38,416 nt of DNA from a virus: IMG/VR virus record IMGVR_UViG_3300025889_000333, positions 1 to 38,416 of that record, one strand, 5' to 3'. Position 1 is the stretch's first letter, and every line of letters begins with the position of its first letter. This document shows, piece by piece, positions 3,966-16,987 of this stretch. The position numbers and the translations under genes are program-made. Below the pieces are notes generated by a model. It ran no database searches. It was not told the DNA's origin and worked only from the letters and a program-made list of their open reading frames with translations.

Positions 3966-4673
3966 TTATTCCTCAATACATTTTAACCAAAATACCAGTA
4001 AGTATCTATCTCCTGATTCTACTGCAAGTCCCCTGTGCATATGAGTAAAACTCGGAAAAATTAGAGCGTGGCCTGTAGGTAAAGGCTCGACTGTACCACG
4101 TTTCAAAAACTCAGTTCCGCCACCTTTGTACTTTCCAGTGTTCAAAGGAACTACCATACTTATATCAGCACTTGCATCATGATGCCAAGCACCTTGTTTT
4201 TTATCCTTTAAATTATAGTTGGCTATTTGTATTCCACCACCGTTTACGTGTCGATTCCAAATATTCAAAAATATAGGATTACCTATAGTATATATCGTAT
4301 GGAACAAGGAATGGAAGATTTCTGGGCAATTATCTTGAAAAGTTATTTCGGGTATTTGACGCAGTTCATCCTCATCTGGGTTGGGTTGAAACCCATGAAA
4401 TGCCTCTAAATTTTTCATTTCATCAAGCAATATTTCGCAAAACTTTTCTGAAAAGAAAGGCACTGTGTAAACATCTTTAAGGGGTTCTTGTATAATCTTA
4501 TCTAATTCAGTGTCTTTTCGTTGTGTGTCGCCTTCTTGTTTGTAGAACTCCATTATCGGTTCTACTGATTGTGATACAGCATCAAACGTATTTTTATCTA
4601 TATACCAGTCAGCAGGATGCTCTAAAAGTATGTTTTTGGTTTTGTATCTTAGATCCTCTGCTGTGTTGCTCAT
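3966..4673 (-). CDS. 2OG-Fe(II) oxygenase-like protein (fifth in window)
   Basis: 235 aa. The C-terminal half has the double-stranded beta-helix signature of 2-oxoglutarate/Fe(II) dioxygenases. The HxD pair is His164/Asp166 in GAWHHDAS. It is followed by a GGGTEF turn, a distal His in SFTHMHRG (His211 or His213), and a conserved Arg (Arg223) in GDRYLLVFW that would bind 2-oxoglutarate. The N-terminal ~110 residues are unrecognised. Such enzymes hydroxylate proteins, nucleic acids or small molecules; the substrate is not predictable here. Its start overlaps the preceding 108-aa gene by 4 bp. It stands apart from the four other oxygenase-like genes at 14.7-17.0 kb, among tail genes, so a virion or lipopolysaccharide target is possible. 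Confidence 0.8.
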   Translation of the reverse strand: MSNTAEDLRYKTKNILLEHPADWYIDKNTFDAVSQSVEPIMEFYKQEGDTQRKDTELDKIIQEPLKDVYTVPFFSEKFCEILLDEMKNLEAFHGFQPNPDEDELRQIPEITFQDNCPEIFHSLFHTIYTIGNPIFLNIWNRHVNGGGIQIANYNLKDKKQGAWHHDASADISMVVPLNTGKYKGGGTEFLKRGTVEPLPTGHALIFPSFTHMHRGLAVESGDRYLLVFWLKCIEE

Positions 4674-6863: not shown

Positions 6864-7307
6864 TTATACCTCATGCCATTCTTTGCCTTCAAACAACAAA
6901 GATTCTGCTTCTCTTCTTCTTATAAGTCCCTGTAATACTTTGCCACCAGCTTTATTCCAGCGTTTAATTTGTGCTGGTACACCTTCATAATCTTTAGCGT
7001 TTAGAACTTTTAACAAAGTTGAGGCTTTTAAATTTGCAGGTCCTAAATTAAATACCCAAGAAACTAGTGCATCAAACTGATTTTGTTCTAGATCAACTTC
7101 TACAAGATCATTTACATATCCTTCGTATTCTTCCATTTCATGTAACAATAAATTATCAGCATCTTCTTGTTTCATTGTATCGCCTTCTTTTACATTCTTG
7201 GTAGAACCATATCCTATAGTCCATACTCCAGCTGCACATTTGTAAGCTTCAAGCTCACAACCTTCAAACTTCTTAATAAGAGCTAAACCTTCTTGTGAAA
7301 TTTTCAT
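6864..7307 (-). CDS. Endolysin, GH24 (T4/P22-type) lysozyme
   Basis: 147 aa from the ATG at 7307, chosen because AAGGAG lies 7 bases upstream; longer forms run into the holin gene. It cleaves the beta-1,4 bond of peptidoglycan. The GH24 catalytic triad is visible with correct spacing: Glu15 in KKFEG, Cys24, and Thr30 in WTIGYGST. This makes it the E-C-T subtype, with Cys in place of the T4 Asp. The family hallmarks FNLGPANLKASTLL and IKRWNKAGGKVLQGLIRRR follow. No signal peptide or anchor is present, so access to the wall needs the holin encoded immediately upstream. Length matches phage lysozymes. Confidence 0.95.
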   Translation of the reverse strand: MKISQEGLALIKKFEGCELEAYKCAAGVWTIGYGSTKNVKEGDTMKQEDADNLLLHEMEEYEGYVNDLVEVDLEQNQFDALVSWVFNLGPANLKASTLLKVLNAKDYEGVPAQIKRWNKAGGKVLQGLIRRREAESLLFEGKEWHEV

Positions 7308-7308
7308 C

Positions 7309-7788
7309 TTATTCTCCTTTGTTGGATGTGTTAGATGCTCCAAAATAGAACGAAATAATTGCACTAGCTAATCCTCCAAGATAACCCAAAACAAGATTTA
7401 TTAAAGCTTCGGAGTTTTGTTCTGGCGGTTGTAACGTAACCAAAAATATATAACCTAAAAAGCCACCTATAGTTGCTATACCAATTATTCTTGCAGTCCA
7501 ATCTTTGCTAAACATACCTCTAGCATTTTGTTTGTCTTGAGTTTCTAGTTTGAATACATCTACTTCGAGCTCTTTCATTTGAACTTCGAATTGTTGTTCA
7601 GCTTTCTTGAGTTCTAACATTTGTTCTGGTGTAGCGTTTTGTATTGCTCTTTCTATTGATTTCTGATCATTTGGTACACCCAGAACATCTGCAATCATGT
7701 TTGCAGCCATGCCTCCCATAGGTCCACCTATTGCTGTTCCTAATGTAGGGGCTACAGCACCTACTATGTTTTTAAGTAATCCCTTCAT
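7309..7788 (-). CDS. Three-transmembrane holin (gene-transfer-agent type)
   Basis: 159 aa. It has hydrophobic segments at about 7-35 (Gly-rich), 100-119 and 128-149, separated by a charged helical region rich in Glu/Lys/Gln (58-90). This matches the three-TM holin family known from gene-transfer agents and many marine phages. The protein would form the inner-membrane lesion that releases the endolysin. It overlaps the XhlA-like gene by 4 bp (ATGA), and the endolysin start lies only 2 bp beyond its stop. A compact lysis cassette is therefore clear. Confidence 0.85.
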   Translation of the reverse strand: MKGLLKNIVGAVAPTLGTAIGGPMGGMAANMIADVLGVPNDQKSIERAIQNATPEQMLELKKAEQQFEVQMKELEVDVFKLETQDKQNARGMFSKDWTARIIGIATIGGFLGYIFLVTLQPPEQNSEALINLVLGYLGGLASAIISFYFGASNTSNKGE

Positions 7789-8001: not shown

Positions 8002-9753
8002 TTATGCAGTAGTAAATATTTTTATTTTATTCTTTTTACCTTTTACAAAAATACCATCAAGTTCTTTTAGCATTATTTGATCACTAAAGGTATCAACTTT
8101 AATGGTATCATAACCTATGACTAAATCTTCGCCAACTTCTTTAGTTGAGCTTTCAAGTCTAGCTGCTAGATTTACAGCATCTCCAATAGCTGTATAATCG
8201 AATCTAGTATCACTACCCATATTACCAACAACAGCATATCCAGTGTTTACACCCACACCTATTTCTACACCAATGTCAGCTTTTTTTATATTTTCTTGTA
8301 TTTCTTTAGCACAAAGCACGGCTGCTGTTTCATGATTTGGTAAATCTATAGGAGCATTAAATATAGCCATCATGGCATCGCCAATATATTTATCTACCAT
8401 TCCTCCATATTCTTTAACTGCGTTTGCTTGAATAGTTAAAGCTTTGTTCATAATCAAAGTTACCTCTTCTGGTTCTAGTCGTTCTGACATAGCAGTAAAC
8501 CCACGGACATCTGTAAAGAGAAAAGTGCAATACCTTCGCTCACCACCCAAAACTAATGACTCTGGATTGTCTTGTAACTTTTTAACTTGTCTTGGATCAA
8601 GATAATGCTCAAACTGTTTTTTAATTTGTTGGCGTAATTTATACTGTTTTCTAAAGTTTAGATAGAAAGCAATAGCACCAGCAATGAATTGAGATACAAA
8701 AGTCCATGAAAAATCTATTAAATAACCTTTTTGAATGCTAAAAGCTCCTGTAAAGCCCGTAGTAAAGAGCAAAATTACAGCAAGGCTTACGCCCTTAGTT
8801 ACACCAAAATAATTAATTACAAGCCACGTCAACGACACAAAAATTGTAAAAATTAAAATTTCCAACGCAAGTGCAAAATCTGGAATAAATGGAGAGTTTT
8901 CTATCAATATTGATTCAGATAGTGCAGCTTGTATTTTATGTGGTTCTAATAATCCAGTCGGTGTTGCAACTTGTGGCATGATTCCTGGAGCAGTAACACC
9001 AACAAATACAAACTTACCTGCAACATCCATTTCTTTTAATGTTGTTTGTGGTGTATCTACCCAACTGATCCATTTACGACCAAGACTATCTGTTTTAACG
9101 GGTGGTATACCTCTTACAGCTATTTCTTGTATACCAACATCATTGGTAGTAATGATGTAAGTTCGAGCTCCTGTAAGTGTTTTTAAGACTTCTGTACCAA
9201 AAGAGCTAACATAACCATCAGGAGTTTTAAGTAACAGTGGTATTCTTCTAACCAAGTTATCTATATCAACTGGTGCACTAGCAATACCTTGATTTGCATT
9301 TTCTTGTAGCACGTCTATGTTTTGTATAACGCCAGGTGTCGACATACCACCAGTATCATCGCCTTTGATAACAGTGCCTGTAGTTTTGGGATAGCTACCA
9401 TTAGCATTTTCAAACATAGCTAACACAGAAGGAGCATATCCAAGGGTAGTGGCAAACACTTTATCTCCACCCATGCGATCGGCTTGTGGAAAACCTATGA
9501 CCCAACCAACACCTATAGCACCTTCATTTATTAAATCTACTTGTATTTGTGCAAGTGTCCTCCTAGGAAATGGCCAACCACCTTGTTTTTCAATATCTTC
9601 TTCTGTAATGTTCAATACAACAAAATTACCAGATGGCTCTGGTGTCGTTACAAAAGCATCAAATATTTTGAGTTTAAATATTTCAGTTGGAGTGCTTTGA
9701 AATATAAGTGGCAGTGATAATACAACCAATATAGGAAAAATAAGTTTATTCAT
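8002..9753 (-). CDS. CHASE2-domain class III adenylyl cyclase
   Basis: 583 aa inner-membrane receptor cyclase. An N-terminal membrane segment (3-18) is followed by a periplasmic CHASE2 sensor (~20-290; VLNITEEDIEKQGGWPFPRR and KFVFVGVTAPG are typical). Three membrane helices follow (~292-315, 320-339, 347-366), then a linker and a cytoplasmic cyclase domain (~405-583). The catalytic residues are all present: metal-binding Asp415 (FTDVRGFT) and Asp459 (KYIGDAMMAIF), substrate-selecting Lys455 and Thr521 (DYTAIGDAVN), and transition-state Asn528 and Arg532. Lys/Thr points to ATP as substrate, hence cAMP. It overlaps the FecR gene by 4 bp (ATGA). In bacteria, CHASE2 cyclases are often encoded beside FecR-domain proteins, and that pair is kept here in a phage. 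The signal sensed is unknown. Confidence 0.93.
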   Translation of the reverse strand: MNKLIFPILVVLSLPLIFQSTPTEIFKLKIFDAFVTTPEPSGNFVVLNITEEDIEKQGGWPFPRRTLAQIQVDLINEGAIGVGWVIGFPQADRMGGDKVFATTLGYAPSVLAMFENANGSYPKTTGTVIKGDDTGGMSTPGVIQNIDVLQENANQGIASAPVDIDNLVRRIPLLLKTPDGYVSSFGTEVLKTLTGARTYIITTNDVGIQEIAVRGIPPVKTDSLGRKWISWVDTPQTTLKEMDVAGKFVFVGVTAPGIMPQVATPTGLLEPHKIQAALSESILIENSPFIPDFALALEILIFTIFVSLTWLVINYFGVTKGVSLAVILLFTTGFTGAFSIQKGYLIDFSWTFVSQFIAGAIAFYLNFRKQYKLRQQIKKQFEHYLDPRQVKKLQDNPESLVLGGERRYCTFLFTDVRGFTAMSERLEPEEVTLIMNKALTIQANAVKEYGGMVDKYIGDAMMAIFNAPIDLPNHETAAVLCAKEIQENIKKADIGVEIGVGVNTGYAVVGNMGSDTRFDYTAIGDAVNLAARLESSTKEVGEDLVIGYDTIKVDTFSDQIMLKELDGIFVKGKKNKIKIFTTA

Positions 9754-10847
9754 TTACTTTGGGTGATTGTAATAACACTATCACTACCTCCGTTGACTTT
9801 AATTGTATTAGAAACACCATCTTGTATCAAAATTACTGTGTAAGCATTACTACCGTTCAAGTCTAATCTAACACTTTCGCTTACATTTCTTCTAAGACTA
9901 ATGACATTACCTGTAATTAAAGTGGTTATTTGTGTGTCAGGATCATTACCTATTAGAGTACCAACTATTTGTGTGCTTGTTGCTAATCTTAATTGGTCTT
10001 CTTCTTTTTCTACAGCAAGTGCATCTATTACATCTAACAAATCTTCAAGAAAGTTTACATCAAGGTAATTTATATCTAGCTCTGTGAATTCGAGTTGATC
10101 TTCGTCTAAGTAGTCTTCTGCTAAGTAATCTATATCTAAATCGTTAAAGTCAAGCAAACTGTTGGTTTGTGTGCTTGTATTTTCTTCTACAATAATTTCT
10201 TCTTCTTTTGGTGGGCTAACAATAAGCATATTATCTATAAGATCTAAAGTAAGATCTAAAATTACAGGTTTTGTAGGAGATGATTCAAACACACTTACGG
10301 TTGTTGCCTGATAAGGTTTATTCAGCAAAACAGAACCAGTGGCTGTAACAACTTCTATCTCACCACTAGATAAACCAAATTTATTTGGTAATAAAATAAT
10401 AAGACTCCGGCCTAGCTCATCTACAGTGGCTGTAAAGTCAGTGCCTCTTATCGCTATATTAGCTGTTGGTGTTTTAAGTTGTATGTTTTGTTTATCTATT
10501 CTGTTTAGATTGCCTGTAATAAACCTAGCTGTGCCTAAACCAAAAGTAAGAGCCATCTTAGACTTTGATGGGTCTGGATCGTAAATATATTCATCAATAA
10601 GTAATTGTGAATGTTCGGTTAGTTTTACAGTAGACTTATCAAGAAAAGTGATAGCCATTCTGCCATCTTTTGTTATAGCCTCATCGTTGCTTTGTATAGC
10701 AAATTCTAAATTAGCTTCGTAAGATTTATCTCTTAATATTTGTGCAGAACCTCTAAGCTCAGATATATCACCTATATCAACAGCTTGTTGAGGTTCCCCC
10801 ATCGTTTTGTGTGATACAAATATTACTATTAGAAGTAGTGCCTTCAA
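9750..10847 (-). CDS. Secreted FecR-domain protein with C-terminal curlin-like repeats
   Basis: 365 aa if it starts at the TTG at 10847, the start that supplies a signal peptide (KALLLIVIFVSHKTMG). An internal ATG at 10802 would remove it. The TTG start makes it overlap the curlin-like gene by 71 bp. A FecR domain spans ~50-140 (SQLLIDEYIYD, then LKTPTANIAIRGTDFTA). Unlike TonB-linked FecR regulators it has no cytoplasmic anti-sigma part, and no sigma factor gene is nearby. Residues 215-285 are an acidic linker with repeats like LDIDYL/LDINYL/LDVNFL. The last ~40 residues (LDLNGSNAYTVILIQDGVSN, then VNGGSDSVITITQ) have the alternating beta pattern and Q-x-G-x-x-N motif of curlin repeats. Probably a periplasmic or exported partner of the amyloid and the cyclase sensor. 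Confidence 0.88.
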   Translation of the reverse strand: MKALLLIVIFVSHKTMGEPQQAVDIGDISELRGSAQILRDKSYEANLEFAIQSNDEAITKDGRMAITFLDKSTVKLTEHSQLLIDEYIYDPDPSKSKMALTFGLGTARFITGNLNRIDKQNIQLKTPTANIAIRGTDFTATVDELGRSLIILLPNKFGLSSGEIEVVTATGSVLLNKPYQATTVSVFESSPTKPVILDLTLDLIDNMLIVSPPKEEEIIVEENTSTQTNSLLDFNDLDIDYLAEDYLDEDQLEFTELDINYLDVNFLEDLLDVIDALAVEKEEDQLRLATSTQIVGTLIGNDPDTQITTLITGNVISLRRNVSESVRLDLNGSNAYTVILIQDGVSNTIKVNGGSDSVITITQSK

Positions 10848-11508
10848 TTTTTAACCAATCCCTTGCTAGTGTTGATGACTGTATAATGTTAAATGTGTTA
10901 CTGCTTCCATCTAAGTCCATATAAAAATATGCTGAATCAGATGATGTATTCCCTGAATAACCACTTCCAGTAAAGTTAAAGACGTTTGAACTACCATTAA
11001 TATCAACAAAATTAATAGCATTAGCATAATCAATATCTATATCAAATTGATTAGAACCACCTAATATAGTGTAGTCTAAATCAAGGTAAGATGAATCTGC
11101 ATTTTCAGCTATTTTTATATCAAATTCGTTACTACTGCCAGTGACATCAATCATTAAATTAACATAATCAGCACTTATAAGTCCTGTGCTGTTAAGCAAT
11201 ATATCCATAACATTGCTATCACCATCAAACTCAAAAAATCCAGTAAAGTTATCGCCATCAATAGCGTCTGATCTAAATAAGTTGCTTGAACCGATTTGAT
11301 TTATATCTAGTGTCATGCTTACACCATCAAGGTCAAGAGCAGTCATGGTGCCAGAAACAGCTTCGGTTCCACCAATAAGGTTAGAACTACCTAACTGTTC
11401 TAGATCTATAGATGCAGTATTTCCGTTTTGATCTATGTAAATTTCATTGTCAGCTGCAACGTGAACAAAAGAAAAAACAAGAAATAAGCACGTTAGTTTA
11501 TTCTTCAT
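10777..11508 (-). CDS. Secreted curlin-like amyloid-repeat protein
   Basis: 243 aa from the ATG at 11508; a GTG immediately before it is the alternative. An N-terminal signal peptide (KNKLTCLFLVFSFVHVAA) precedes DNEIYIDQNGNTASI, which matches the curlin Q-x-G-x-x-x-x pattern. Numbering from the GTG, at least seven units follow. Each has alternating polar/hydrophobic residues ending in GSSN or a variant (residues 41, 74, 97, 125, 151, 173, 202), then a hydrophobic-Asp/Asn-Ile/Phe strand such as FDIDI or FNIIQ. Spacing is 22-33 residues, looser than the 22-23 of E. coli CsgA/CsgB, and many positions carry Asp. The gene overlaps csgG by about 11-14 bp. Curlin family membership is inferred from motif, secretion signal and position after csgF-csgG; it is the likely cargo. 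Confidence 0.8.
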   Translation of the reverse strand: MKNKLTCLFLVFSFVHVAADNEIYIDQNGNTASIDLEQLGSSNLIGGTEAVSGTMTALDLDGVSMTLDINQIGSSNLFRSDAIDGDNFTGFFEFDGDSNVMDILLNSTGLISADYVNLMIDVTGSSNEFDIKIAENADSSYLDLDYTILGGSNQFDIDIDYANAINFVDINGSSNVFNFTGSGYSGNTSSDSAYFYMDLDGSSNTFNIIQSSTLARDWLKIEGTTSNSNICITQNDGGTSTSC

Positions 11509-12355
11509 CACTCGATTCTACTCCTACTTCTTCTGTTTGTAAAACCCAATAACCTTTGTCAAAACCCTGGTTAATTATCTCAAGAACACCACCTTCAATA
11601 GCTTTCATGAGGGCTATGGTAGACGATTCGTTTCTAGCGTTGCCTAACTCTATCTCTACGAGCTCTGTGTCCATTTCAATAAACCTGAATACATCATTGG
11701 TTTTACCATAACTAAATATGGTTTTTTGACTAAGAACTTCTAATAATACTTCTCCTGTTGCTACAGAAATCATGCGTAGACTTACAGTTATATTATCCTC
11801 TCTATACTGAACACTATTACCAATGCCTAGATAACGAGCTCCTGATCCACCAGATTCAAGGTTTGCTTCGTATGATATTACTGCACCTTCTATAAGTATG
11901 CCTGCAAAGAGTAATGGTGCTAATTGTTTCTTTTTTTCTTCTTCAGAAGCAAATTGCTCTCTTGCCGAACGTATAAGCTGTCTTTCTTTGGTTAAATTAT
12001 CTAAACCAACTCTTTCTACAACCCTAAAAAACTGTCCGTTACCAGCGTGTTTTAAGGCTCTTATAAGTAAAGCATTAGGTTGTTGAGTTATAGCCGTACT
12101 GAACAAAGCAAACTCAGAGTTTGATTTACGTTGACCTGTTTGATCTGTGAAAGCCAAAGGATATACAGCAACAACAGGTCTAACCTTTGGTATAGGTGCG
12201 TTTTTTAATTTATCTGATTGAAGTTCCTGGATAGAAACTATGTTGTGTTGTTTAAACCTTTGCTCGTATGTATCTTCAAACTGGTCAAATATAGAGCAAC
12301 TAGAAAGTAAAAGAACCAATAGGCAAAGTAATCTCGGTGACATTTCCATCAGCAT
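11498..12355 (-). CDS. csgG: CsgG, outer-membrane curli secretion channel lipoprotein
   Basis: 285 aa, close to the E. coli length (277). It would form the ring-shaped outer-membrane pore that exports curli subunits. A lipoprotein signal (LLCLLVLLLSSC) gives lipobox Cys20 followed by Ser, which favours the outer membrane. Family landmarks align along the whole length: VAVYPLAFTDQTGQ, FRVVERVGLDNLTKERQLIR, ILIEGAVISYEANLESGG, GARYLGIGNSVQY, SVATGEVLLEV, VFRFIEMD. In the constriction loop the E. coli Phe56 appears kept (Phe85), while Tyr51 and Asn55 are not obviously matched. Start choice among Met codons at 12355, 12349 and 12343 is uncertain; all lie inside csgF, so translation is coupled. 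Confidence 0.95.
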   Translation of the reverse strand: MLMEMSPRLLCLLVLLLSSCSIFDQFEDTYEQRFKQHNIVSIQELQSDKLKNAPIPKVRPVVAVYPLAFTDQTGQRKSNSEFALFSTAITQQPNALLIRALKHAGNGQFFRVVERVGLDNLTKERQLIRSAREQFASEEEKKKQLAPLLFAGILIEGAVISYEANLESGGSGARYLGIGNSVQYREDNITVSLRMISVATGEVLLEVLSQKTIFSYGKTNDVFRFIEMDTELVEIELGNARNESSTIALMKAIEGGVLEIINQGFDKGYWVLQTEEVGVESSDEE

Positions 12356-12812
12356 CGGTTATTCGTAATGTAATAAATTGTCCATCAGATGTATATTCTA
12401 TAGTATTACCTTCGAGTTCTATAGTGCCTTCCGTTTGTGGTGTTTCACCAAATAGATTATCCACTAATTGTCGTGATAGTTGTGCATAGATTCTTGATTC
12501 TAAATTACGCAAAAAACGAGCTAGTGTAGTGTTTTCTTTATCTCTTTCTATTTGTTCTTGTAGTGCTTTGATTTCTTCTTTTATTGTAAGTTTTCTGGTG
12601 TACTGCTGGTTCTCTATTGTTAAATAGTGACTAGACGTGCCAACACCACTAAAGCTAGGTGACTTAAATTTGTGAACGATCTGATCAGCCTTTATGTTTT
12701 GTACAAAAATACCAATTATTAAAATTATGCCAATAAGCACTATTGACCACAGCAATCTATCTTTTTCAAGCTGTTCTTTTTCTAATTGTTTTTTAGTCTT
12801 TTCTTTGGTCAT
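12300..12812 (-). CDS. csgF: CsgF-like curli assembly factor
   Basis: 170 aa from the ATG at 12812, preceded by AAGG at 9 bases; a TTG at 12830 is less likely. In curli systems CsgF caps the CsgG pore on the outside and couples secretion to nucleation. A Lys/Glu-rich N-terminus of about 20 residues precedes a hydrophobic segment (22-38), a signal peptide or anchor. The mature part opens with IVHKFKSPSFSGVGTSSHYL, matching the CsgF pattern FxFRNPNFGG that inserts into CsgG. The helical middle (LARFLRNLESRIYAQLSRQL) and beta C-terminus (DGQFITLRITDADGNVTEIT, then LPIGSF) also follow CsgF. The unusually long charged N-terminus is atypical. It overlaps csgG by up to 56 bp. Confidence 0.88.
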   Translation of the reverse strand: MTKEKTKKQLEKEQLEKDRLLWSIVLIGIILIIGIFVQNIKADQIVHKFKSPSFSGVGTSSHYLTIENQQYTRKLTIKEEIKALQEQIERDKENTTLARFLRNLESRIYAQLSRQLVDNLFGETPQTEGTIELEGNTIEYTSDGQFITLRITDADGNVTEITLPIGSFTF

Positions 12813-13143
12813 CTCTATCAGCCTTAGCAATTTTATTGCTATCTATTAGTTGTGGCACACCTAATATTGTTTTAATTAGTGTGTCCTGGCGTATGATTTC
12901 ATTATCTAAACTACGCACTCTGTCTATTAAGGCTACTAAAATACCATGCTGTGAGTCAAGTTTTGTGCCTAGACGTTCTTCTATAGACGCTATCTGTGAT
13001 TCTACTTTTTCATCAACAGTGTCTAGTTTGGCTTCCATGCCATCAACAATACGTATAACCAGTTTGTATATAAACCAACCAAGACCTATTGCTGCTGCGA
13101 TAGGAAATCCTACCTCTTGAATTATGGTTACTGCTGAATCCAC
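12793..13143 (-). CDS. Membrane-anchored coiled-coil protein, holin-like
   Basis: 116 aa. A single N-terminal transmembrane helix (about 11-31, GFPIAAAIGLGWFIYKLVI) is followed by a long coiled coil with Asp/Glu/Ile/Leu heptads to ~105. The layout resembles BhlA/UviB-type holins and similar small phage membrane proteins. No catalytic motif is present. Its end overlaps csgF by about 20 bp, and it abuts the 264-aa virion protein upstream (shared TAATG-type junction), so it is the first membrane gene leading into the curli module. It could be a lysis factor or an accessory of the secretion system; sequence does not separate the two. Confidence 0.55.
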   Translation of the reverse strand: MDSAVTIIQEVGFPIAAAIGLGWFIYKLVIRIVDGMEAKLDTVDEKVESQIASIEERLGTKLDSQHGILVALIDRVRSLDNEIIRQDTLIKTILGVPQLIDSNKIAKADRDDQRKD

Positions 13144-14710: not shown

Positions 14711-15208
14711 TTAATCGCCTATGGCTACGTCAAAAGCTAATACATATCTATCTATTTTAGGTATTCCTTTTTCAGCTTGATGATATAGCCTTGAATCAAA
14801 TAAATTCCAACAATTAATTACAGGTTTTATTTTATTACTGTCGCTAAATACGGTGCCAAAATTTGTTTCAGTTAAATAAGCTATTGCTGAAATATTAAAG
14901 TTTTGACAAGTATCTGCGTGGTTATGCCTTATTGAATCTATTTTTTCGCCTGCTTTATTTAAAAACACCCAACATTTTTTATGTAAAATATTTGGCTGAT
15001 AACCTAAATATTTAGATACAGTATTATCAATAGATTGATTTAGTTGTTTGTAGTCTTTGTATAGAGTTCCGTTAGATTGTATTCTTGCGTGTTCGCATTT
15101 TGGATAGTCTTTGCAACACGGGTTATTTTTAATAAAATGCCGCAGTTTTTTATGAAATTTATTAGTATTTATTTTTTTTAAAATGTCACAATAATAAGTT
15201 TCGTACAT
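14711..15208 (-). CDS. 2OG-Fe(II) oxygenase-like protein (fourth of the cluster)
   Basis: 165 aa. The order of motifs fits a 2OG-Fe(II) dioxygenase beta-helix: RHNHADTCQN supplies His97/Asp99, AIAYLTETNFGTVF is the next strand pair, and LYHQAEKG (His143) with KIDRYVLAFDV (Arg154) supply the distal His and the 2-oxoglutarate Arg. The N-terminus carries five Cys between about residues 8 and 38. It is more diverged than its three neighbours, and I assign the fold with moderate confidence. It overlaps the preceding oxygenase gene by one base. Codon use is very AT-rich. Confidence 0.6.
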   Translation of the reverse strand: MYETYYCDILKKINTNKFHKKLRHFIKNNPCCKDYPKCEHARIQSNGTLYKDYKQLNQSIDNTVSKYLGYQPNILHKKCWVFLNKAGEKIDSIRHNHADTCQNFNISAIAYLTETNFGTVFSDSNKIKPVINCWNLFDSRLYHQAEKGIPKIDRYVLAFDVAIGD

Positions 15209-15825
15209 TATTGTTTAAAATATGAAGGTAATCCAATCATAGGTCTGCCATCAAATTTATTTTGTTTAGCATTTTCACCATTTGCATCGTTGTAGTGTAA
15301 AAATACTTGCCCGCAGTCTTTACCCAGAAATGGCTCACGCCAATGCTCTAAATCACAACCACGATACATAAGCATATCACCAGGTTTAAGTTTAATCTCT
15401 ACACCATCTTTACCTTTTTTACCTGAAGGTTCTAAAAATATTGACCAATCATCTCCGCCTAAATTCATAGTAGTAGATATTTCGCATGAAGGTCTATCTT
15501 TATGTCGTTTAAGTTCATCACCATTTTTATAAATTCTTGCATAAGAATAAGTTTCTATAAGCTTTACACCTGATTCTTTTTCCATAATTGGTTTAACCTT
15601 TTGTAATAAAGTTTCCATAACTATATCAGCGTAATGTGAATAAGTTTCAGGTATTTGTTGGTCGTTCCAAACACCAAAGTATTCGGTAAACTGAGATATA
15701 TATTTTTCATCAAATAAATGTCTTGCCACCATTCTTTTATTTAAAAAATACTGATAGCAAAAATCTGCTAATTCTTCTGATATAGCATTTTTAATTATTT
15801 GGTATTTATCTTTTTTAAAACTCAT
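15208..15825 (-). CDS. 2OG-Fe(II) oxygenase-like protein (third of the cluster)
   Basis: 205 aa. The iron-binding HxD pair is His108/Asp110 (LKRHKDRPSCEISTTMNLGG), the distal His is His161 (RGCDLEHWREPF), and the final strand is GQVFLHYND. The usual C-terminal Arg for 2-oxoglutarate is not obvious at that place (Gln173 is near), a variation I recall in this marine phage subgroup. LKPGDMLMYRG is a typical strand before the distal His. It overlaps the upstream oxygenase by 4 bp and the next by 1 bp. Substrate unknown. Confidence 0.82.
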   Translation of the reverse strand: MSFKKDKYQIIKNAISEELADFCYQYFLNKRMVARHLFDEKYISQFTEYFGVWNDQQIPETYSHYADIVMETLLQKVKPIMEKESGVKLIETYSYARIYKNGDELKRHKDRPSCEISTTMNLGGDDWSIFLEPSGKKGKDGVEIKLKPGDMLMYRGCDLEHWREPFLGKDCGQVFLHYNDANGENAKQNKFDGRPMIGLPSYFKQ

Positions 15826-16370
15826 AAAAAATTTGCAACTATAACTATTCTTTTTTCATCTATATCTGGACATTCTTGATAATGTTCGAGTTTGCCGTCA
15901 AACATAATGACACTATTTTCTTTTGGATTTGAATAAAATTTTTGATTATCCTCTCCTAATACTATTGTTCTACCTTGTGAAAATTTTGTTAAATAAACTA
16001 TAACGACTTTGTGAGGAAAATTTAGATCTATGTGCGGTATGCTAGATTTAACGGAACTATGTGGCGTCATGTTTATATTCATACGATACATAACTTCTAA
16101 ATCTATGTTGTTAAAATCAAGTATTTCTTTCAATACAGAATAACATTCATCAAAATAGGTAGATACTCTTTCAGGTATAGCAGGAACTTGTTTGCCATAA
16201 CTTTGATGTGTTGGTCTGCCCAATAAACAATGAGCAAAAAAACCCATATCTTCTTCATCTGTATCAGAAACAGTTTTATCAAGGTAATACCAAGGGAAGT
16301 TATTGCTTAATACTACATTTTTTAAATTTTTATAACTTTCTGTAACTGGGTTTTTTAGATTTTTAATCAT
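15822..16370 (-). CDS. 2OG-Fe(II) oxygenase-like protein (second of the cluster)
   Basis: 182 aa. HxD is His113/Asp115 in SIPHIDLNFPHKVVIVYL, the distal His is His163 in MFDGKLEHYQECP, and Arg174 in EKRIVIVANF fits 2-oxoglutarate binding. All elements needed for activity are therefore present. It overlaps both neighbours by 4 bp. Similar proteins occur in T4-like cyanophages and other marine phages, usually without a known substrate. Confidence 0.78.
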   Translation of the reverse strand: MIKNLKNPVTESYKNLKNVVLSNNFPWYYLDKTVSDTDEEDMGFFAHCLLGRPTHQSYGKQVPAIPERVSTYFDECYSVLKEILDFNNIDLEVMYRMNINMTPHSSVKSSIPHIDLNFPHKVVIVYLTKFSQGRTIVLGEDNQKFYSNPKENSVIMFDGKLEHYQECPDIDEKRIVIVANFL

Positions 16371-16987
16371 TTATAAGGGTACCCCAAATTCCAACACACT
16401 AAGGAGTGTCTTGTCCCTTTTGTAACTGGCTTTACTCTATGCCAAACAAAAGAAGGAAAAACAATTATACTACCTTTTTCTCTAATTTCTTTACATATTC
16501 TTGGTTGGGAGCCTTTGTCTGTATTTCTAAAATCAAACTCTAAATCTCCACCTTCGTATTCTTTAGGGTCAGTGAGTGATACAGTCATACTAAGTTTTCT
16601 TTGCTTACCATGAGTATTTATATTATCTGGACTGTTGTAAGGTTCTTCACGCGAATCACAGTGCCAATCATAAAATTGTCCTTTTTTATATTCAGTAAAT
16701 TGGCAAGCCTCTGACCAATCCCATTCAAAATTCCAACCAGCACTTGTATTTGCTTGATATATGTAGGGTTGAATTTCGTTATATATCCATCTGTCTGACA
16801 TCCAAACAACATCAGATTTGCGTTTTTTCTGTATGTTTTTTAGTTCTGTATCAGTAAGATTATCTTTTTGAAAATTACCTGTAAGAGCTATTTCTTGATC
16901 TTGCTCTTTACCATAACGTACTATTTCATCACATATTCTTTCTGGTATAGCTGACTGAAAGTACCAGTAATACCATTTAAGATTCAT
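16367..16987 (-). CDS. 2OG-Fe(II) oxygenase, prolyl-hydroxylase (PKHD) type (first of the cluster)
   Basis: 206 aa and the clearest member of the set. His109/Asp111 lie in GQFYDWHCDSREE, His183 in PSFVWHRVKPVTKGTRHSLV, and Arg193 in the same motif binds 2-oxoglutarate. YEGGDLEFDF between them is the standard PKHD turn. Enzymes of this type hydroxylate prolyl or other side chains. It follows the polyglycine adhesin-like gene directly (11 bp gap), so hydroxylation of tail or fibre proteins, or of host surface molecules, is a reasonable but untested idea. Confidence 0.93.
   Translation of the reverse strand: MNLKWYYWYFQSAIPERICDEIVRYGKEQDQEIALTGNFQKDNLTDTELKNIQKKRKSDVVWMSDRWIYNEIQPYIYQANTSAGWNFEWDWSEACQFTEYKKGQFYDWHCDSREEPYNSPDNINTHGKQRKLSMTVSLTDPKEYEGGDLEFDFRNTDKGSQPRICKEIREKGSIIVFPSFVWHRVKPVTKGTRHSLVCWNLGYPYK

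Follow-up and report, generated by a model that had tools for sequence, protein, structure and literature searches.

The gene that directly follows csgG in the window (the whole stretch of DNA that was analysed, a virus record of 38,416 bases) is a divergent member of the published phage curli system; curli are amyloid fibres that serve bacteria as a 'glue'. On sequence comparison its product, CurA, is a member of the curlin (CsgA/CsgB) family at the level of family homology, and it probably works as a secreted fibre subunit, the cargo of the phage's own type VIII secretion module. A functional secreted curlin is argued for because the cargo gene is constant among related loci, is under purifying selection and is conserved in its end rungs. 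To the published picture the analysis adds three lineages, an Asn ladder that is invariant in all three, core Gln positions kept mainly in the end repeats, an Asp-rich degenerate middle in the window's lineage and a conserved C-terminal Cys pair. A preliminary description, made from the DNA letters, had proposed a new curlin-like protein. The curlin-like character was borne out by fold prediction and profile comparison; the claim of novelty fell away, since pelagiphage type VIII modules with CsgA/B have been published (PMC9599517) and orthologues are already annotated as 'curlin minor subunit CsgB' in Pelagibacter phage HTVC008M (AGE60350) and as 'curlin associated repeat protein' in phage Melnitz (QZI95051).

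The curlin-like protein and its repeats

The gene lies on the minus strand, with its ATG at 11506-11508 and its stop codon at 10777-10779, and encodes 243 aa. The preliminary description had given this range without a strand; the ORF itself is real, and the forward-strand translation of the same range has stops throughout. An in-frame GTG one codon before the ATG gives the ORF as listed, 10777-11511 with 244 aa. As the description held, it is the first gene after csgG, and its start overlaps the end of that gene by 11 bp.

The protein begins with a Sec-like signal peptide, MKNKLTCLFLVFSFVHVAA followed by DNEIY (judged by eye). At least seven GSSN-type motifs spaced by 22-33 residues had been claimed, and seven G[SDG]SN motifs were found at residues 40, 73, 96, 124, 150, 172 and 201, with exactly that range of spacing: the motif Asn residues are 33, 23, 28, 26, 22 and 29 residues apart, and N21 lies 22 residues before N43. 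Composition-preserving shuffles reached seven motifs in 0 of 20,000 cases (mean 0.12). Q-x-G-x-x-N, described for the first and third units, occurs twice (Q38-N43 and Q71-N76) and closes the first and second units. The statement that a strict Gln/Asn ladder is lacking was too strong, as seven Asn and four Gln are invariant in an alignment of 52 relatives, for which the start codons were chosen by a heuristic. These residues, N21, N43, N76, N99, N127, N153 and N175 with Q27, Q38, Q210 and Q234, are all kept down to about 30% identity.

Nine repeats of 22-33 residues, the last one partial, could be delimited (Table 1). R1 has the full curlin motif, halves a and b; R2, R8 and R9 have the core Gln, which R3-R7 lack while retaining the Asn. 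Across the three lineages both halves of R1 carry the core Gln motif, as do the final two rungs, and the middle rungs have no more than one conserved copy; this division into ends and middle was drawn after the alignment had been seen. Invariant columns are most frequent in R1, with a share of 0.36. The loose spacing, taken earlier as the mark of a divergent curlin, fits the 'degenerate' CsgA class, described with long, irregular repeats, incomplete motifs and lengthening insertions (PMC10192328).

The mature protein is Asp-rich as described (12.1% Asp), with a net charge of about -30, compared with -6 for E. coli CsgA. In the window's lineage, T1, Asp density is 14.3% in the middle, 8.6% in R1 and 5.9% in the last 36 residues, and 20 of the 27 Asp residues are conserved at 95% or more. 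This gradient is specific to T1: the second lineage, T2, has no such enrichment, and the third, lineage M, has its higher Asp content at the ends. All 41 distinct T1 sequences have Cys231 and Cys243, the last residue. In T2, too, each sequence contains two Cys and no more, and these align at the C-terminus.

Against Pfam Curlin_rpt (PF07012) the window copy scored below the cut-off (11.9 bits versus 20.7, E 0.23), and 21 of the 52 relatives matched the model (best E 8.6e-6). The profile comparison proposed in the preliminary description aligned the window family with the canonical curlin repeats of phages at a probability of 98.4% (E 4.8e-15, 169 columns); the hhalign partner consisted of the C-terminal repeats of myophage curlin genes, which themselves match Curlin_rpt (5e-8). 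Direct comparison with E. coli CsgA and CsgB was not significant, and a PDB sequence search with the family profile gave nothing meaningful. Upstream CurA/CurB matches in some loci were set aside as false matches resembling tail fibres.

Structure prediction, the other proposed check, returned a beta-solenoid: the AlphaFold2 model, a monomer built with 50 natural relatives, has repeating beta strands throughout (mean pLDDT 79, pTM 0.80). VIA-align matched it to beta-helix domains at a best Z of 17.0 (210 residues, rmsd 3.4), and 121 of the 183 compared chains reached Z 8 or more. The best solved matches were SufB/SufD (Z 16-17 over about 210 residues), and all Foldseek E-values against the PDB were above 0.001. 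The top named viral models were 'Curlin associated' proteins of uncultured Caudovirales (TM 0.75 and 0.78, with 26% identity for one). Solved curli chains were absent among the matches listed in the fold search, which has no bearing either way.

The secretion module and its relatives

The terminase of the window is 56-60% identical to those of HTVC023P, HTVC027P and related phages, and the carrier of the module is a marine phage related to the HTVC023P-type pelagiphages. No near DNA match to the window was found in the phage collection, the phage records or the E. coli genomes. On the minus strand the module runs from a 116-aa membrane/coiled-coil protein through CsgF, CsgG, the curlin-like gene and a FecR-domain protein to a CHASE2-adenylate cyclase, beyond which lie a 159-aa gene and a lysozyme gene (6864-7364).

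Table 1. Features of the curli module in the window and repeats of CurA
Feature	Position	Strand	Remarks
Small protein, 116 aa	12793..13143	-	one likely membrane helix and a coiled coil (judged by eye)
CsgF, curli assembly factor	12300..12830	-	PF10614 E 3.9e-18; alignment with E. coli CsgF
CsgG, outer-membrane curli secretion pore	11498..12355	-	PF03783 E 3.7e-46; PHROG 20175 E 5.7e-63; lipobox-like LLLSSC
CurA, curlin-family secreted protein, lineage T1	10777..11508	-	243 aa; candidate cargo of the phage CsgG/CsgF pore
FecR-domain protein	9750..10847	-	PF04773 E 5.6e-10; PHROG 37870; start codon uncertain (TTG)
CHASE2 and class III adenylate/guanylate cyclase	8002..9753	-	last gene of the module; PF05226 E 7.2e-26; PF00211 E 5.8e-17
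CurA repeat R1	residues 21-42		
CurA repeat R2	residues 43-75		
CurA repeat R3	residues 76-98		
CurA repeat R4	residues 99-126		
CurA repeat R5	residues 127-152		
CurA repeat R6	residues 153-174		
CurA repeat R7	residues 175-203		
CurA repeat R8	residues 204-228		
CurA repeat R9	residues 229-243		partial

To judge by their sequences, the phage CsgG and CsgF are both intact. CsgG shares 40% identity with its E. coli counterpart. Aligned with E. coli CsgF, the phage CsgF keeps the motif F-x2-P-x-F-x-G, the CsgG-binding segment, which in the mature E. coli protein lies close to the start. No CsgE was seen in the module. The small membrane/coiled-coil protein is a constant upstream partner in many related loci, and one or two copies of its gene precede csgF in podo- and myophage-type loci. 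Searches of Pfam, PHROGs and NCBIfam revealed no kinase domain in it, only weak holin matches (PHROG, E 0.014). In the published pelagiphage module a histidine kinase stands upstream of CsgF (PMC9599517), whereas the window gene in that place is without a kinase domain; it is probably the gene that was named histidine kinase there.

A curlin gene was found directly after csgG in 229/229 viral loci with enough sequence, among the matches listed; 10 other loci end within 204 bp of csgG. These loci come from three viral scans, of which best matches were taken, so that lineage frequencies are not representative, and some contigs that occur in more than one scan were counted twice. The curlin itself served as the seed of one scan, so the link between csgG and curlin is not purely a product of searching with CsgG. 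The preliminary description had called CurA the natural cargo of CsgG, and as candidate cargo it is supported by the invariant synteny, the fold prediction and the profile comparison. A FecR gene was present in 210 of the 229 curlin-bearing loci, and many of the others are short contigs. The scan of bacterial contigs gave mostly contigs with a phage-like module (L164-L169, L174), several of them labelled as bacterial MAGs and possibly phage, together with a few bacterial csg loci in which FecR was undetected.

The relatives sort into three separate types, T1 (to which the window belongs), T2 and M, with no intermediates between them. T1 and T2 curlins are about 49% identical (dN about 0.5), against 85% for CsgG and 81% for FecR. 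The median dN/dS of T2 curlins is about 0.09, like that of CsgG (0.084), FecR (0.083) and CsgF; for T1, one pair gave dN 0.056 and dS 0.68. The curlin types are nearly clean clades, with two type changes on the CsgG tree and one on the FecR tree, which rules out repeated swapping of curlin types between phages and points to one old split rather than frequent exchange. The difference between T1 and T2 curlins reflects either a single replacement or fast divergence.

The C-terminus of the FecR protein (9753-10038, roughly the last 70 residues) is a beta-rich stretch with a pLDDT of about 80, and podo- and myophage FecR proteins share an invariant Tyr and Gln and an I-x-I-x-Q end in it. With its conserved Q-x20-Q and ITITQ ending, this stretch was considered as a fused curlin nucleator and rejected: hhalign against curlin profiles gave a probability of at most 6%, the whole protein was poorly predicted by AlphaFold2 (pLDDT 44), and the better-predicted C-terminal part had no curlin-like match. 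Between FecR and cyclase the window has no gene, unlike two of its relatives, which carry a probable DNA cytosine methyltransferase gene there (L183, 6103-7747; L184, 6796-8491; judged by eye).

Proposed function and alternatives

As proposed, the infected cell would export CurA by Sec, as the leader suggests, and the protein would cross the outer membrane via the phage CsgG pore with the aid of phage CsgF, a route to which homology and synteny point. Outside, its predicted fold is a beta-solenoid of nine rungs that bears an Asn ladder, and the solenoids may then stack by their ends into a curli-like fibre. The sticky ends would be the first rung and the final two, with their canonical core Gln; the degenerate middle, Asp-rich in T1, may delay polymerisation until the protein is outside, much as Asp gatekeepers do in R2-R4 of E. 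coli CsgA. In that protein R1 and R5 mediate intermolecular contacts and drive fibrillation, Asp and Gly gatekeepers in R2-R4 restrain nucleation, and Asp added to R1 or R5 abolishes spontaneous fibrillation (PMC11414021). The fibre would most likely serve to clump infected cells or to give them a coat; 'sibling capture' and defence against superinfection by other phages have been put forward as ideas (PMC9599517). Several points weigh against this reading: the window copy misses the Pfam cut-off and does not compare significantly with the E. coli curlins, neither CsgE nor a second curlin as nucleator was seen in the module, the Asp-rich middle is confined to T1, and no clumping was seen with Melnitz (PMC9004378).

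It seems doubtful that T1 goes further and represents a minimal self-sufficient curlin, one subunit with sticky canonical end rungs and a strongly acidic, degenerate body that ends in the conserved Cys pair. Asp gatekeepers would keep such a subunit in solution until sea-water ionic strength frees it to polymerise, with no nucleator, CsgE or second curlin. If this were true, the phage would equip a curli-less host with an extracellular fibre. As to the possible tuning to sea water, also raised in the preliminary description, the Asp residues are conserved in T1, and in an engineered Citrobacter CsgA variant NaCl up to 600 mM raised the nucleation rate by four logs; the effect depended on Arg/Lys-Asp pairs, and gatekeeping was weakened at about sea-water strength (PMC9900396). 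The parallel is a loose one, because the window protein has almost no Lys or Arg. Nothing was found in favour of the calcium dependence that had been suggested, for which a high Asp content by itself does not count. The layout yields concrete predictions for end-rung Gln mutants, salt-triggered assembly and Cys mutants.

There is some chance, though a small one, that CurA is a curlin-derived beta-solenoid that is still exported by CsgG/CsgF and no longer polymerises, acting at the surface as a monomer or short oligomer, an adhesin or a receptor mask. Its degenerate middle and strong negative charge are in keeping with this, and the Cys231-Cys243 pair, if joined in a disulfide, might close off the end of the solenoid and so prevent stacking. 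Failure to polymerise is indeed common among beta-solenoids (PMC10192328), and the loss of fibrillation on adding Asp to the end repeats of CsgA points the same way. However, the canonical Gln and Asn of CurA are best conserved in R1 and the last rungs, the very places at which stacking would require them, and CsgF has been retained, both of which favour the fibre subunit.

That the CsgG/CsgF pore has been repurposed, for pinholin- or secretin-like lysis timing or for nutrient uptake, with the curlin gene as a passenger, as was put forward for Melnitz (PMC9004378) and considered in PMC7029224, is improbable. The lysozyme gene near the module and the weak holin matches of the small upstream protein would suit such a role, but the curlin gene was never missing after csgG among the matches listed, T2 curlins are under purifying selection as strong as that on CsgG, and the Melnitz module itself has two genes annotated as curlin-associated repeat proteins. 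The idea that CurA is no curlin at all but an unrelated low-complexity beta-repeat protein placed in the module by chance could draw on the sub-threshold Pfam score and the missing E. coli and PDB matches, yet it is already largely refuted, and very improbable, given the profile match to canonical curlin paralogues, the relatives that match Curlin_rpt, the Asn ladder and the viral curlin fold matches.

Comparison with described curli systems

Curli modules encoded by phages occur widely in the ocean, and no fibre was shown in the literature found. The cluster was first reported without identification of its curlins (PMC7029224); CsgF, CsgG, CsgA/B, FecR and adenylate cyclase were later described in HTVC023P-type podoviruses and pelagimyophages (PMC9599517). 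One culture paper, on the OM43 phage Melnitz, argued that the cargo is missing: Melnitz was said to lack csgA/B, and a lysis pore was proposed (PMC9004378). Despite this, the module in its GenBank record includes two genes annotated as curlin associated repeat proteins (L083, 7791-8510 and 9569-10585), and both fall into the phage curlin families of this analysis. In the published pelagiphage systems, HTVC008M and Melnitz among them, and likewise in the related loci, the curlin occupies the same slot of the order CsgF-CsgG-curlin-FecR-cyclase as in the window, and the HTVC008M protein is of the same family, with about 30% identity to CurA.

With E. coli CsgA and CsgB the window protein shares a signal peptide, Asn/Gln repeats, a predicted solenoid and, by inference for the phage, export through a CsgG/CsgF pore. 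The arrangement of restrained middle repeats between sticky end repeats may be likened to the gatekeeper layout of E. coli CsgA. That protein has five repeats of about 23 residues, whereas CurA has nine uneven ones of 22-33 aa, with Gln confined to the ends except for one in the middle, and two conserved Cys; the window module also differs from that of E. coli in having no CsgE and no separate nucleator that could be seen. The degenerate-class CsgA of marine bacteria such as Sediminicola and Roseovarius (PMC10192328), likened here by description, shares the incomplete motifs and the insertions; CurA differs from it in being phage-encoded.

The published order allows a second CsgA/B after FecR (PMC9599517), whereas the window has no second curlin gene, and none that could be a nucleator was found in the 139 T1/T2 loci that cover the stretch from FecR to cyclase. 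Many myophage-type loci do carry a second curlin with canonical repeats between FecR and cyclase (L082, 6639-7961; L134, 3840-5114; L116, 10447-11913); the NCBIfam CsgB model matched the myophage second curlin gene at 1e-7, below the model's cut-off. The N-terminal heads of these second curlins are exchangeable. In some, a PA14 domain (PF07691, E 2e-8 to 3e-6) is fused to canonical curlin repeats, a fusion for which a literature search on PA14 with curlin found no description; others have a different domain with a weak ThuA match, and elsewhere short forms of 117-127 aa occur. Outside the module, the window encodes several 2OG-Fe(II) oxygenase-like proteins (3966-4673 and 15208-16987), of which the one at 3966-4673 matches PHROG 61 and the others were judged by eye.
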